Positions 20,590 to 25,498 of a stretch of 64,000 bases of DNA are shown one piece after another; positions within the stretch are counted from its first letter, which is position 1; every line of letters starts with the position of its first letter. The notes below the pieces were generated by a model, which was given only the letters and a program-made list of their open reading frames with translations, was not told the origin of the DNA and did not search any database. Origin of the DNA: Acidithrix ferrooxidans. Its GTDB lineage: Bacteria > Actinomycetota > Acidimicrobiia > Acidimicrobiales > Acidimicrobiaceae. The position numbers and the translations under genes were made by a program. The DNA lies in NCBI RefSeq assembly GCF_000949295.1, contig NZ_JXYS01000003.1, forward strand, positions 1 through 64,000. The letters are read 5' to 3'.

Positions 20590-21252
20590 GTGCATGTAAT
20601 TGTTATAGGATGTGGCCGCGTCGGATCTGAATTAGCGGCACGACTCTCCTACGAGGGCCACTCAACCGTAATTATCGACAAGAACTCATCAGCCTTTCGT
20701 CGGCTAAGTCCGACATTTAACGGAAAGACCATAACGGGGCTCGGTTTCGACCGAGAGCGCCTCGAGGCAGCAGAGATAGATCGCGCCGACGCACTAGCAG
20801 CAGTCACAAGTGGAGACAACTCAAATATATTGACTGCAAGAATTGCAAAAGAGACCTTTGAAGTCCCAAAGGTAGTTGCCCGAATCTACGACCCCAAAAG
20901 AGCCGAGATCTATCAGCGACTTGGGATCGCTACGGTAGCTACGGTTACTTGGACGACAGAACAAGCTATGCGTCGCCTCTTCGAAGACTATGCACAGCCG
21001 GATTGGATAGAACCACACGGTGGATATGTCCTTTTGGAGAGGGGCCTTCCGCTTCACATGACTGGCCATCGTCTTACAAACCTAACCGAAATACCAAATG
21101 CCCTTCCGATTCTATTGACACGGGGAACCTCTGCAAAGCTCTTCAATAATGAGCTGGTCGCACAAGAGGGTGACGTAGTTCATTTCATGGTGGAACGCGG
21201 ATCGATTCAAGGCCTCGACAAGGCGCTTTTCGAGATTGGAAAAACGCAATGA
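20590..21252 (+). CDS. TrkA-family potassium regulator, first of pair (CeoB-like)
   Basis: A 220-residue RCK protein. Residues 1-130 form a Rossmann domain (MHVIVIGCGRVGSELAARL with GxGxxG, acidic VIIDKN at the end of beta-2). The rest is an RCK_C-like domain. Such proteins bind NAD(H) or nucleotides and gate potassium transporters from the cytoplasm. The start is GTG, and the stop overlaps the next gene's ATG (ATGA). Actinobacteria typically encode this tandem pair next to an APC permease in divergent orientation, as here; the 130-bp gap should hold both promoters. Confidence 0.85.
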   Translation: MHVIVIGCGRVGSELAARLSYEGHSTVIIDKNSSAFRRLSPTFNGKTITGLGFDRERLEAAEIDRADALAAVTSGDNSNILTARIAKETFEVPKVVARIYDPKRAEIYQRLGIATVATVTWTTEQAMRRLFEDYAQPDWIEPHGGYVLLERGLPLHMTGHRLTNLTEIPNALPILLTRGTSAKLFNNELVAQEGDVVHFMVERGSIQGLDKALFEIGKTQ

Positions 21253-21923
21253 AAGTCGTAATCGCAGGTGCTGGAAGCGTGGGTGCGTTCATCGCTCAAG
21301 ATCTCTTTGAAGCTGGCCACGACGTTATGGTCATCGAACAAAATGGTGATGAAGTAGCCAAACTCAAAGATCACATCGGATGTAAATTCTCTGTCGCCGA
21401 CGCATGTGAAGTTTCATCGCTTCAAGCCGCCGGCTTGGCAGATACCGACGTCGTAGTAGCAGCGACTGGTGATGACGAAGATAATCTTGTCATCTCGCTC
21501 CTCGCAAAGCAGGAGTTTATGGTTCCCAGAGTTGTCGCGCGTGTGAACAATCCAAAGAACCACTGGCTCTTCAATAAGACATGGGGCGTGGACGTCTCGG
21601 TTTCAACACCTCACCTTCTCTCTTCGTTGGTCGAAGAGGCGGTATCAGTAGGATCGCTTGTAAGGTTGCTCTCCTTTGAAAAGAGTGGTGCTCGCCTCGT
21701 CGAAGTTACATTAGCGGATAACTCTCCAGCCAATGACTTTGAACTAGCAACGCTTGCTTTCCCCAAAGAGGCCTCGATCGTCGCTATTATTCGCGACGGC
21801 AGCATTATCGTACCTCGAGGAGAGACGATATTTCGCTGTGGCGACGAAGTTGTAGCACTCGTGACAATCGATTCCGAGGCAGAGTTGAAGGCAATTTTGA
21901 TCGGCACCGCCCCCATGGGCTAG
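21249..21923 (+). CDS. TrkA-family potassium regulator, second of pair (CeoC-like)
   Basis: A 224-residue RCK protein with MKVVIAGAGSVGAFIAQDL (GxGxxG), MVIEQNGDEV at the beta-2 end and an RCK_C domain from about 135 (VRLLSFEKSGARLVEVTL, DGSIIVPRGETIF). It is translationally coupled to the preceding TrkA gene and probably forms heteromers with it to control the divergent permease or another potassium channel. A strong hairpin follows about 100 bp downstream. Confidence 0.85.
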   Translation: MKVVIAGAGSVGAFIAQDLFEAGHDVMVIEQNGDEVAKLKDHIGCKFSVADACEVSSLQAAGLADTDVVVAATGDDEDNLVISLLAKQEFMVPRVVARVNNPKNHWLFNKTWGVDVSVSTPHLLSSLVEEAVSVGSLVRLLSFEKSGARLVEVTLADNSPANDFELATLAFPKEASIVAIIRDGSIIVPRGETIFRCGDEVVALVTIDSEAELKAILIGTAPMG

Positions 21924-22019
21924 CAGAGATTAACAAATTAGCTGCAAAGCTCTAGAGTTTTTTACCAATGCCAGTCTCTCCAAAAAAAAACTGCCACCTT
22001 TACCCTAAATCCCTACTTC

Positions 22020-22057
22020 ATCCCTACTTCGTCAAGAAAATTTGACGAAGTAGGGAT
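22020..22057. terminator. 16-bp perfect hairpin after the TrkA pair
   Basis: ATCCCTACTTCGTCAA pairs exactly with TTGACGAAGTAGGGAT around a 6-nt loop GAAAAT. A partial extra copy of the left arm (TCCCTACTTCAT) precedes it. T-runs are weak, so it may act as an RNA-stabilising or bidirectional terminator hairpin. Confidence 0.55.
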
Positions 22058-22223: not shown

Positions 22224-24503
22224 ATGGCTAAGGATATTATGGCTAGAGGATCTCTGGATGCTGCACAACAGAAGGCTTATTCACTACTTGAAGAGATGAT
22301 CGCTCAAGGCCCTCAAATAGTCATCGAATCGAGCACTCCCACCGATGAACAAGGCGGTGCCACCGAGATAACCGAAAAGATCCTAGAGTCAATCAATCAG
22401 ATCGGTCCAATGAGTCAAAGTCGCTTCAGCGTCATAGAGTGCTCTGAGACTACCGATGCATTAGACCTCCTACTCGATGCGATACAAATCACAAAGAGAT
22501 CCAACGAATCGATCTTGGTCTTTGTTGAGGGCGCATCAAGTGCAAGAAGCACGCTTCGGATCCTAAAGGCAAAGAACGCTTCGTTGGAGATTCTGGATCT
22601 ATCGCAAAAACATTCCCAAAAGAGTCTCGCCACAAATGGCCTAAGGGCCGATCTAATAATTGCGACACCCGAATCAATCCATAGACAACTTCTTCCTGAA
22701 CAGTTCAGCCTCTATCGTATTATCCAACGGATTTCGTCACTATGGATCTTTGATATGGTGGAGTTTCGTGGTCTTTTAGGTTCAAACCTTTTTCACATCC
22801 TAAAACGCTTCGAACTCGCGGCTAAAGATCTCGGCCGAGATATTTCCCTTGTTGGGGTCGGAATTGAATTAGGCGACGCCGATCGATTTGCGTGTGAATT
22901 ATTTGACTGTGGAGGCGACCAACTCGCCAAAATCTATCTACCACCTGACCGACCGGGCTCTATTTCAATTGGGTTTATCGATCCAAATATCGAGGTAGAT
23001 CCTTCTTCTGCACTTACAATCGCCTCTAAACTTGCTCGACTCGGATGGCAGGGAAATCTAAAGACGGCAGTGATCACCTCATCGCGACTCAAGGCAGAGC
23101 TAATCTCCAACTTCATAATCGAATCATCCAGTAACATTCCAGCAGAAGATCTCGTTCTCTATCGAGGAGGATACTTGGGGGAATTGAGAGTCGAGCTAGA
23201 AGAGCGACTCCTTGTGGACAGGGTGAAGATCGCAGTAGCCACATCCGCCCTAGCTCGAGATCTGACCCGCTTTGATCTAGTAGTTTTAGTTGGATTTCCA
23301 GGCACGATTGCTCGTTTTCGGCGCGATTTTCAGCGAATTTCAAAGGCGGGCGGGATGATAGTTTTGGTCGCCTCCGCAGATCAATTAGACCGTTGGATAA
23401 CTAGAAATCCCCACGAAATCATCACACGTAAAAATGAGGGGGCGGCCATCAACCCCTTCAATAAAAGTGTATGCCACCACCAGCTCATCGCAGCGTCTTC
23501 AGAAAGGTCGATCACTGCGAGTTCTTACCTTAGGGGAGAAAATGGAATTAGAGAGGTAACCGATTCACTCGAGCAACTAGTTGCCCAATCGACCTTGATA
23601 AAGACGCCGTTGGGATATCAATATGTAGGTTCAAGGCAACCAACAAGAAACTATGGTCTCAGGGGTTACATAAGTCGGAAATACCGAATGATCACCACTA
23701 CTGGTGAAGTGCTAGAAGAGATAAACGAAGATCAAATTCCAACGAGCGCCTTTATTGGAGCGGTCTATCGCCATCGCAGAGCAAGATTCAGGATCGTAGC
23801 GATCGACGATGACAATAGCTTTATCTTCGTCGAAAAGACCGAAGATCAAATTTACACAAAAGCACTCATCGAATCCAACTACCAATTTTCAAAGATGAGA
23901 TTACTTACCTCTCCATCGCTTGGCCTTTGGATTGGCGTAGCCGACCTCTTCGTCACCGAAACACACCTTGGATATGAGACCTACTCTGAGGCCGGAGCAC
24001 TCTTGGGCATTCAGCGAAATCGCCTTCCATCAAAAGAGTTAGATACTGAGGCATTCTTTATCTCCTTTAGTGATGATGCCACCTCTGATATTGAGACCGA
24101 ACTCCTTCCAGGCGCCCTTCATGCCATGGAACATTGTGCCATTGGAATACTTCCTATAGTTTCAATCTGCGATCGATGGGACGTCGGAGGCGTCTCCTTT
24201 GTGGCCTCACCAGGCTCTGCTAACGGCCTTGATCTGGACGAAATCTCCGGCGCTGTGGCAATTTACGATGGCTACGCTGGTGGAGTTGGAATTTCTTACG
24301 CCACCTACGAAGCCCAAGCTACTTTAATGGCCTCTACCCTTGAGACTCTCGTCAACTGTCCCTGCACCACAGGATGTCCCTCTTGCATAGTAAGCCCAAA
24401 GTGTGGAAACAATAATGAGCCGCTATCAAAACGCGGAGCCCTAGAACTGACACGACTTGTCGCAGATTCCTTAGCAGGCAAGAGAAATCTCAAAGGCTCC
24501 TAA
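22224..24503 (+). CDS. MrfA/YprA-like helicase homologue with DUF1998 cysteine cluster and degenerate ATPase motifs
   Basis: The 759-residue protein aligns by eye with the DEAD/DEAH helicases that end in DUF1998 (MrfA/YprA group, DNA repair). The C-terminus keeps the hallmark four cysteines, NCPCTTGCPSCIVSPKCG, at about 717-734. The helicase core does not keep its motifs. The Walker A position reads ESSTPTDEQGG with no GKS or GKT. The DEVH/DELH box reads IFDMVEFRG in the usual context before the GSNLFHILKRF helix. Motif VI reads FRRDFQRISKAGG instead of QQAGRAGR, although VLVGFPGTIARF just before it is conserved. ATP hydrolysis therefore looks unlikely, yet the frame is long and undamaged. 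Confidence 0.7.
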   Translation: MAKDIMARGSLDAAQQKAYSLLEEMIAQGPQIVIESSTPTDEQGGATEITEKILESINQIGPMSQSRFSVIECSETTDALDLLLDAIQITKRSNESILVFVEGASSARSTLRILKAKNASLEILDLSQKHSQKSLATNGLRADLIIATPESIHRQLLPEQFSLYRIIQRISSLWIFDMVEFRGLLGSNLFHILKRFELAAKDLGRDISLVGVGIELGDADRFACELFDCGGDQLAKIYLPPDRPGSISIGFIDPNIEVDPSSALTIASKLARLGWQGNLKTAVITSSRLKAELISNFIIESSSNIPAEDLVLYRGGYLGELRVELEERLLVDRVKIAVATSALARDLTRFDLVVLVGFPGTIARFRRDFQRISKAGGMIVLVASADQLDRWITRNPHEIITRKNEGAAINPFNKSVCHHQLIAASSERSITASSYLRGENGIREVTDSLEQLVAQSTLIKTPLGYQYVGSRQPTRNYGLRGYISRKYRMITTTGEVLEEINEDQIPTSAFIGAVYRHRRARFRIVAIDDDNSFIFVEKTEDQIYTKALIESNYQFSKMRLLTSPSLGLWIGVADLFVTETHLGYETYSEAGALLGIQRNRLPSKELDTEAFFISFSDDATSDIETELLPGALHAMEHCAIGILPIVSICDRWDVGGVSFVASPGSANGLDLDEISGAVAIYDGYAGGVGISYATYEAQATLMASTLETLVNCPCTTGCPSCIVSPKCGNNNEPLSKRGALELTRLVADSLAGKRNLKGS

Positions 24504-24673: not shown

Positions 24674-25498
24674 GTGAGAGCTGCCTTCTTTGACCTTGAT
24701 AAAACTGTAATTGCCAAAGCATCTATGCTCGCCTTTGGAAGGACCTTCTACAAAGAGGGGTTACTATCCCGCCGAACCATTATGCGCTCCGCTTATGCCC
24801 AGGTCTTGTATAAATACACCGGGGCAAACGAGCGACAACTTCAAAAGCTCAGAGAAACAGTTCTTTCTCTGACCAAGGGTTGGGAAAAGTCATTGGTCTC
24901 AGCAATCGTTTCGGAGACAATGACCGAGATAGTGGAGCCTCTTATCTTCAAAGAAGCCCTCGACTTGATAGAAGAACATAAAAAAAATGGAGACCTTGTA
25001 TTCATTGTTTCGGCATCGCCCAGCGAGATCGTAGTTCCCCTTGGTGAACGACTCGCCGTCGACGGTGTAATCGCGACAATATCAAAGGTTGACGCCGACG
25101 GAAGATACACCGGGGAGATGGAGTTCTATGCATACGGCCCATACAAGGCCGAAGCTATGCAAAAGTTGGCCGAAGAATATGGATTTTCTCTAGAAGAATC
25201 GTACGCCTATTCCGACTCATACACTGATCTCCCAATGCTTGAAGCCGTAGGAAATCCAGTCGTAGTCAATCCAGATCGAGTCTTAGCTAAAATAGCCAAA
25301 GATCGATCCTGGAAGATACTCAGTTTCACCAATCCCGTGCGAGTTCGTGAAGGACGCGTCCGACCATCTACGCCAACCGCACTTGTAGCATTGACGCTGG
25401 GAATCGCATCCGTCGCGGCCTCAAGCTTCTACCTGCTCTATCGAGTACGACGTTTGTCTGCTCAGATTCGTTCCATTCTTTTGTCAGCGGCAGATTAA
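24674..25498 (+). CDS. HAD-IB family hydrolase (SerB/CicA-like) with C-terminal membrane segment
   Basis: The 274-residue protein starts with the HAD motif I FFDLDKTV (nucleophile D at about 7). Motif II is FIVSASPSEI and motif IV is YAYSDSYTDLPML, ordering a phosphatase of the IB, phosphoserine-phosphatase-like class. The substrate is not evident; relatives act on phospholipid precursors or phosphoserine. A hydrophobic stretch near the C-terminus (TALVALTLGIASVAASSFYLL) suggests membrane anchoring. The GTG start is supported by immediate placement of motif I. A clear terminator follows. Confidence 0.8.
   Translation: MRAAFFDLDKTVIAKASMLAFGRTFYKEGLLSRRTIMRSAYAQVLYKYTGANERQLQKLRETVLSLTKGWEKSLVSAIVSETMTEIVEPLIFKEALDLIEEHKKNGDLVFIVSASPSEIVVPLGERLAVDGVIATISKVDADGRYTGEMEFYAYGPYKAEAMQKLAEEYGFSLEESYAYSDSYTDLPMLEAVGNPVVVNPDRVLAKIAKDRSWKILSFTNPVRVREGRVRPSTPTALVALTLGIASVAASSFYLLYRVRRLSAQIRSILLSAAD

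Follow-up and report, generated by a model that had tools for sequence, protein, structure and literature searches.

The gene described here lies in a window of 64,000 nucleotides (the whole stretch of DNA that was analysed) from the acidophilic actinobacterium Acidithrix ferrooxidans, the assembly of which comprises 4.02 Mb in 183 contigs. The gene is situated between a pair of TrkA-like genes (trkA1 and trkA2) and a gene for a HAD-IB family hydrolase (Table 1). As originally predicted, it is an intact frame of 759 codons without an internal stop. In the intergenic stretch between trkA2 and this gene, a perfect 16-nt inverted repeat with a 6-nt loop occupies positions 22020-22057, beside an 11-nt tandem copy at 22009; the core of the repeat is unique within the genome, and it is possibly a terminator or an operator. 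A promoter scan upstream of the gene returned nothing beyond chance.

Table 1. Genes, lost and retained motifs, and domains at the locus (window positions; residues are those of the 759-aa protein)
Feature	Position	Strand	Remark
TrkA-like gene 1	20590..21252	+	conserved upstream neighbour
TrkA-like gene 2	21249..21923	+	conserved upstream neighbour
Pseudo-helicase gene	22224..24503	+	759 aa; MrfA/YprA (TIGR03817-like) descent
Motif I (P-loop) site, residues 68-91	22425..22496	+	strand-turn-helix, without GK[ST]
Motif Ib-like block, residues 147-153 ATPESIH	22662..22682	+	kept; P149 and H153 invariant in active and pseudo-forms
DExH box (motif II) site, residues 176-179 FDMV	22749..22760	+	placed by alignment
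SAT (motif III) site, residues 213-215 GIE	22860..22868	+	placed by alignment
RecA2 SR...E and YRGGYL blocks, residues 287-318	23082..23177	+	kept
Motif V remnant, residues 340-346	23241..23261	+	placed by alignment
Lost motif VI (QxxGRxGR) site, residues 364-372	23313..23339	+	placed by alignment
MZB (MrfA zinc-binding) domain, residues 636-722	24129..24389	+	slowest-evolving part of the pseudo-form
CPCTTGCPSCIVSPKC, five invariant cysteines (712, 714, 718, 721, 727)	24357..24404	+	putative metal-binding cluster
HAD-IB family hydrolase (TIGR01490)	24674..25498	+	conserved neighbour immediately downstream

The sole Pfam match of the protein is to its MZB domain (PF09369; 59.3 bits against a cut-off of 24.2), and a PDB sequence search returned only MrfA/YprA (6ZNP; E 6e-41, residues 143-723). 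Among NCBIfam models, TIGR03817 is matched partially (303.6 bits, profile positions 129-740), with the RecA1 part of the profile unmatched. This score is below the curated cut-off of 874.1; since the intact orthologue of a sister genus (g6) likewise falls short of it, at 674.9 bits, the cut-off by itself cannot separate active from inactive members. The NCPCTTGCPSCIVSPKCG and VGFPGTIARF blocks are confirmed, and the cysteines of the DUF1998 region, said originally to be kept, form a putative metal-binding cluster that is invariant across 57 sequences. An AlphaFold2 model built from 57 sequences (pLDDT 87.2, pTM 0.89) predicts a complete MrfA fold, in which the RecA1-RecA2-canopy-MZB architecture is recovered, although the model is biased toward the family fold because its alignment contains active relatives. 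Its best solved match is DNA-bound MrfA (6znp_A; Z 28.8, rmsd 5.7, 702 residues aligned; Foldseek E 1e-45), and residues 68-91 are predicted to form the strand and helix expected around a P-loop, linked by a short turn. Together with the MZB, TIGR03817 and 6ZNP matches, this predicted fold bears out the proposed descent from MrfA/YprA.

Alignment of the protein with active relatives reveals that the ATPase motifs have been replaced. At the P-loop, SGK[ST] has given way to TTDA or a gap, and no glycine-rich loop is present. All nine full-length pseudo-forms carry [FWY]Dx[VTS] at motif II: an aromatic residue takes the place of the Mg-binding Asp of active forms (position 176), and Asp that of the catalytic Glu (position 177). 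Motif V, ALELG(I/V)D in active forms, is ALARD and two residues shorter in the window protein, and motif V and GFPG are separated by a spacing of 13 in 9/9 pseudo-forms versus 15 in 42/42 measurable active forms. Motif VI (QxxGRxGR) has become RDFQRI, in which GR is absent and both arginines are lost. The reported lack of Walker A, DExH and motif VI is thus borne out, and it extends to SAT, to the tail of motif V and to the Q-motif (HQ) and motif Ia (PTKALA), the last two of which were absent from the original list. No pseudo-form has GK[ST] where motif I should lie; a single GKT string (in L079) falls downstream of that position. Some members of the genus retain P-loop-like ghosts, GPPNSGQ and GAVNSGE, and these NSGQ/NSGE remnants are what could be cited in favour of continued ATP hydrolysis at a non-canonical site. 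Such activity is exceedingly improbable, however, because the lysine, the Mg-binding Asp, the catalytic Glu, SAT and both motif VI arginines were lost together and the window form lacks even the glycine-rich loop, whereas the P-loop Lys-to-Arg change alone abolishes the ATPase of E. coli PriA (PMC4504706). Judged from its sequence, the gene product would be devoid of ATPase activity.

The gene is carried by 11 of the 12 genomes of the genus, with 34-41% identity to the window copy, and the motifs are missing in all 11; nine of the copies are full-length and two are cut by contig ends, the latter showing the loss of motifs I and II. The orthologues sharing the motif losses, whose existence the original prediction had made a point to check, thus occur in ten further genomes of the genus, and because these show identical losses, chance or sequencing error is excluded. 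The nine full-length pseudo-forms constitute one clade (support 100/100) with common indels, within which type A (G002, G003, G004, G010, G011) and type B (G001, G007, G008) can be told apart, the window copy standing apart from both. The relatives compared are mostly metagenome-assembled genomes (MAGs). A contig scan returned 80 relatives; all 8 from the genus of the window are motif-less, and the other 72 possess Walker A and motif VI in so far as their contigs span these motifs, although a simple regular expression failed to pick up DExH or motif V in some of the 72. When 296 genomes of the class were surveyed, orthologues from the genus matched the TIGR03817 profile only from position 127-129 at about 300-330 bits, and nearly all other long intact orthologues matched it from near its start at 415-952 bits; low scores outside the genus come mostly from contig-end fragments or more distant helicases. 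Two relatives titled Bifidobacterium breve (L100 and L106) have helicase motif strings and frame length equal to those of an Acidimicrobiia MAG (L098) and are probably mislabelled MAGs.

The order trkA1-trkA2-X-HAD (TIGR01490) is conserved between genera, while the occupant of X varies. In the sister genus (G016 and G022) it is an intact helicase, and the motifs of G027 and G034 are likewise intact. In three further genera (g3, g4 and g7) X is missing, leaving trkA2 and HAD approximately 36-109 bases apart. The pseudo-helicase descends vertically from a motif-bearing helicase in the same operon slot, and the tree, the gene order and the common indels place the motif loss as one ancient event in the common ancestor, before the genus diversified. 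A half-eroded copy occupies the slot in G012, from a second genus, where GKS is kept but the DExH box reads AEVH, SAT reads AAN and motif VI is gone. This copy (L042 238-2655), which has lost the DExH Asp but keeps the MZB cysteines, lies on a very long branch and possibly represents a second, independent loss in progress; an AU test of a single versus a separate origin gave p 0.38. The distance between trkA2 and the pseudo-form extends to about 5.5 kb in G002, G003, G004 and G011, an interval that in G002 appears to be an oxidoreductase block. The block, present in part of the genus, resembles an iron-sulfur/molybdopterin oxidoreductase operon (L033 4912-10314; L167 2573-7908), and a similar-sized gap occurs at its position in G018, from another genus. 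In G009 the oxidoreductase-like block is present and the pseudo-helicase gene has been deleted (L167 1924-2573) with both neighbours retained, which indicates that the gene is dispensable.

The pseudo-form is kept by purifying selection. By the simple method of Nei and Gojobori, type A pairs (dS 0.1-0.9) have a dN/dS of 0.12-0.16; type B pairs are near dS saturation (pN 0.16-0.19, pS 0.72-0.79). None of the 11 frames contains a stop, whereas 28-96 nonsense hits would be expected per single branch under neutrality, given branch lengths assumed from dS (0.45-1.0 per site). Constraint is unevenly distributed, with RecA1 the fastest part of the pseudo-form and the constraint shifted to the MZB end. 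Relative to neighbouring genes, the rate of RecA1 is 5.8-8.1x in type B and 1.4-2.7x in type A versus 1.0x in the active g6 pair; the corresponding values for MZB are 1.8-2.3x, 0.9-1.2x and 1.4x. Of the columns that at least 90% of active forms conserve, those still present in all nine pseudo-forms number 8/56 in RecA1, 20/47 in RecA2 and 40/56 in canopy plus MZB, as would be anticipated had only the ATP cleft been given up.

These data bear on simple decay, in which the protein, once its ATPase was lost, drifts toward disappearance. The gene does evolve faster than its neighbours, by several-fold in type B, where G001 and G008 are 76% identical in the pseudo-helicase versus 93-96% in six flanking genes; this excess, the deletion in G009 and the empty slot in sister genera mean that the gene is dispensable and its constraint relaxed, and the half-eroded G012 copy would also fit decay. 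Nevertheless, decay is a quite improbable account, since it is largely refuted by the dN/dS values and also has against it the 11 stop-free frames, an MZB rate close to that of neighbouring genes and a confident full-length predicted fold. The original prediction held that normal motifs in close relatives would mark this copy as simply decaying; such motifs do exist in the sister genus, in the same slot, but the decay does not follow, as the loss is genus-wide and the gene is selectively maintained. Retention under selection, as first proposed, therefore stands.

With regard to what has been retained, the motif Ib, SR...E and YRGGYL blocks lie on the nucleic-acid side in SF2 helicases, and their survival in the pseudo-forms suggests that nucleic-acid binding may have outlasted the motor. 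Constraint is highest on the MZB, which, as far as rates can tell, is therefore the probable site of the key interaction, and an intact cysteine domain is consistent with a scaffold-like role. It is conceivable, albeit unlikely, that nucleic-acid binding was lost as well and that the protein is purely a protein-protein adaptor, with the canopy and MZB serving a partner such as the HAD-IB product. The constraint on MZB would fit an adaptor, and the HAD gene lies directly 3′ of the pseudo-helicase at every full-length locus of the genus that was read, only a few bases away in several; in addition, RecA2 is not positively charged, and its net charge is more negative in most pseudo-forms than the active-form mean and so gives no positive hint of DNA binding. 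On the contrary, the nucleic-acid-side positions P149, H153, SR..E and YRxGY are invariant from active to pseudo-forms, and HAD also neighbours the active g6 helicase, so that its link with the gene predates the motif loss.

Inactive helicase folds may also be kept as regulatory or structural subunits of an active helicase, a known route exemplified by RecC and AddB in RecBCD and AddAB. SF2 helicase-like proteins of about 1500 aa in several of these genomes could supply such a partner, but this arrangement is improbable here, given that six genomes of the genus (G001, G003, G004, G007, G008 and G011; 82-95% complete) show no second MZB protein and that no MrfB-type RNase H partner was found in the gene-bearing genomes of the genus. 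The partnership with an active paralogue that had been suggested originally is unsupported and was rejected, because most genomes of the genus have no other MZB helicase and the second MZB protein of the A. ferrooxidans genome is of the defence type, a fragment of a DISARM-like helicase close to an IS element. This fragment, on contig 34 (L051 2671-10513), carries an MZB, has apparently had its N-terminal part cut off, and adjoins an SNF2-like helicase and an IS3-type transposase. Membership of the pseudo-helicase in a DISARM system was likewise rejected, as the sole DISARM-like gene seen is the one on that other contig.

Among known systems, MrfA/YprA of B. subtilis (6ZNP/6ZNQ/6ZNS) shares with the window protein the predicted full-length fold, the RecA1-RecA2-OB/canopy-MZB order and the zinc-type cysteines, but differs in possessing the ATPase motifs and in its MrfB-type exonuclease (PF13482; DEDDh), no match to which came from the genome of the window or the other gene-bearing genomes of the genus; the one weak PF13482 match is in G009, which has no pseudo-helicase gene. 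TIGR03817, the 'helicase/secretion neighborhood' DEAH-box helicase, represents the same lineage, and the gene is positionally orthologous to the intact sister-genus helicase. Its name implies a secretion (Tad) link, but secretion genes do not lie beside the gene in the window; none of 41 relatives matched TIGR03819 above cut-off, which speaks neither for nor against such a link. DISARM DrmAB likewise combines an MZB/DUF1998 module with a YprA-like core, but as separate polypeptides in a defence context, and such genes are absent from the window locus. A parallel is the PriA of D. radiodurans, also a bacterial SF2 DNA-repair helicase, which one clade retained despite the decay of its motifs I and II; its ATPase and unwinding activities were lost and DNA binding was kept (PMC4504706). 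It belongs to another family and its P-loop shows only a K-to-R change, whereas the window form is far more eroded and its P-loop erased; by analogy, this case shows that bacterial repair helicases can take such a motor-loss path. Utp25 (PMC9539457) is likewise helicase-derived and termed a pseudohelicase, but is a eukaryotic ribosome-assembly factor acting on RNA.

Taken together, the gene probably encodes a clade-specific pseudohelicase, vertically descended from MrfA/YprA, maintained by selection and most likely acting as an ATP-independent nucleic-acid-binding scaffold. An ATP-driven MrfA/YprA-type ancestor in the same slot lost its ATPase motifs once, and the gene was then selectively retained. 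The two RecA lobes, predicted still to fold, would offer motif Ib, SR...E and YRGGYL on the nucleic-acid side, with the OB/MZB canopy closing over them, and the protein may thereby retain DNA that is damaged or single-stranded and make it, or a partner, available to further repair enzymes. It is tempting to go further and to regard the protein as the first motorless member of MrfA/YprA, an ATP-independent clamp or sensor that grips damaged or single-stranded DNA but does not translocate, whose working part is the canopy/MZB and which acts with the HAD-IB product in acidophilic Acidimicrobiia, but this fuller scheme is rather doubtful.

As far as the literature searched shows, a motorless helicase relic is new for the MrfA/YprA family. 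The pseudohelicase literature yielded no MrfA/YprA case, within a scope of mainly open-access papers, so that an earlier mention is possible. A 2025 survey of the YprA family (PMC12458937) mentions nuclease domains and a GTPase homologue that have been inactivated, and term searches of its text turned up no inactive helicase core. Within this scope, the idea of an undescribed pseudo-helicase class stands for this family and not for pseudohelicases as such, which are known.

Annotation by homology may mislabel the gene as a helicase. More broadly, within a family whose hallmark is ATP-driven translocation, one lineage has lost the motor, and selection acts on the remainder. The MZB canopy of MrfA is hard to study separately from the motor, and the intact, half-eroded, motorless and empty versions of one slot in close relatives provide a natural series for the function of the MZB canopy alone.
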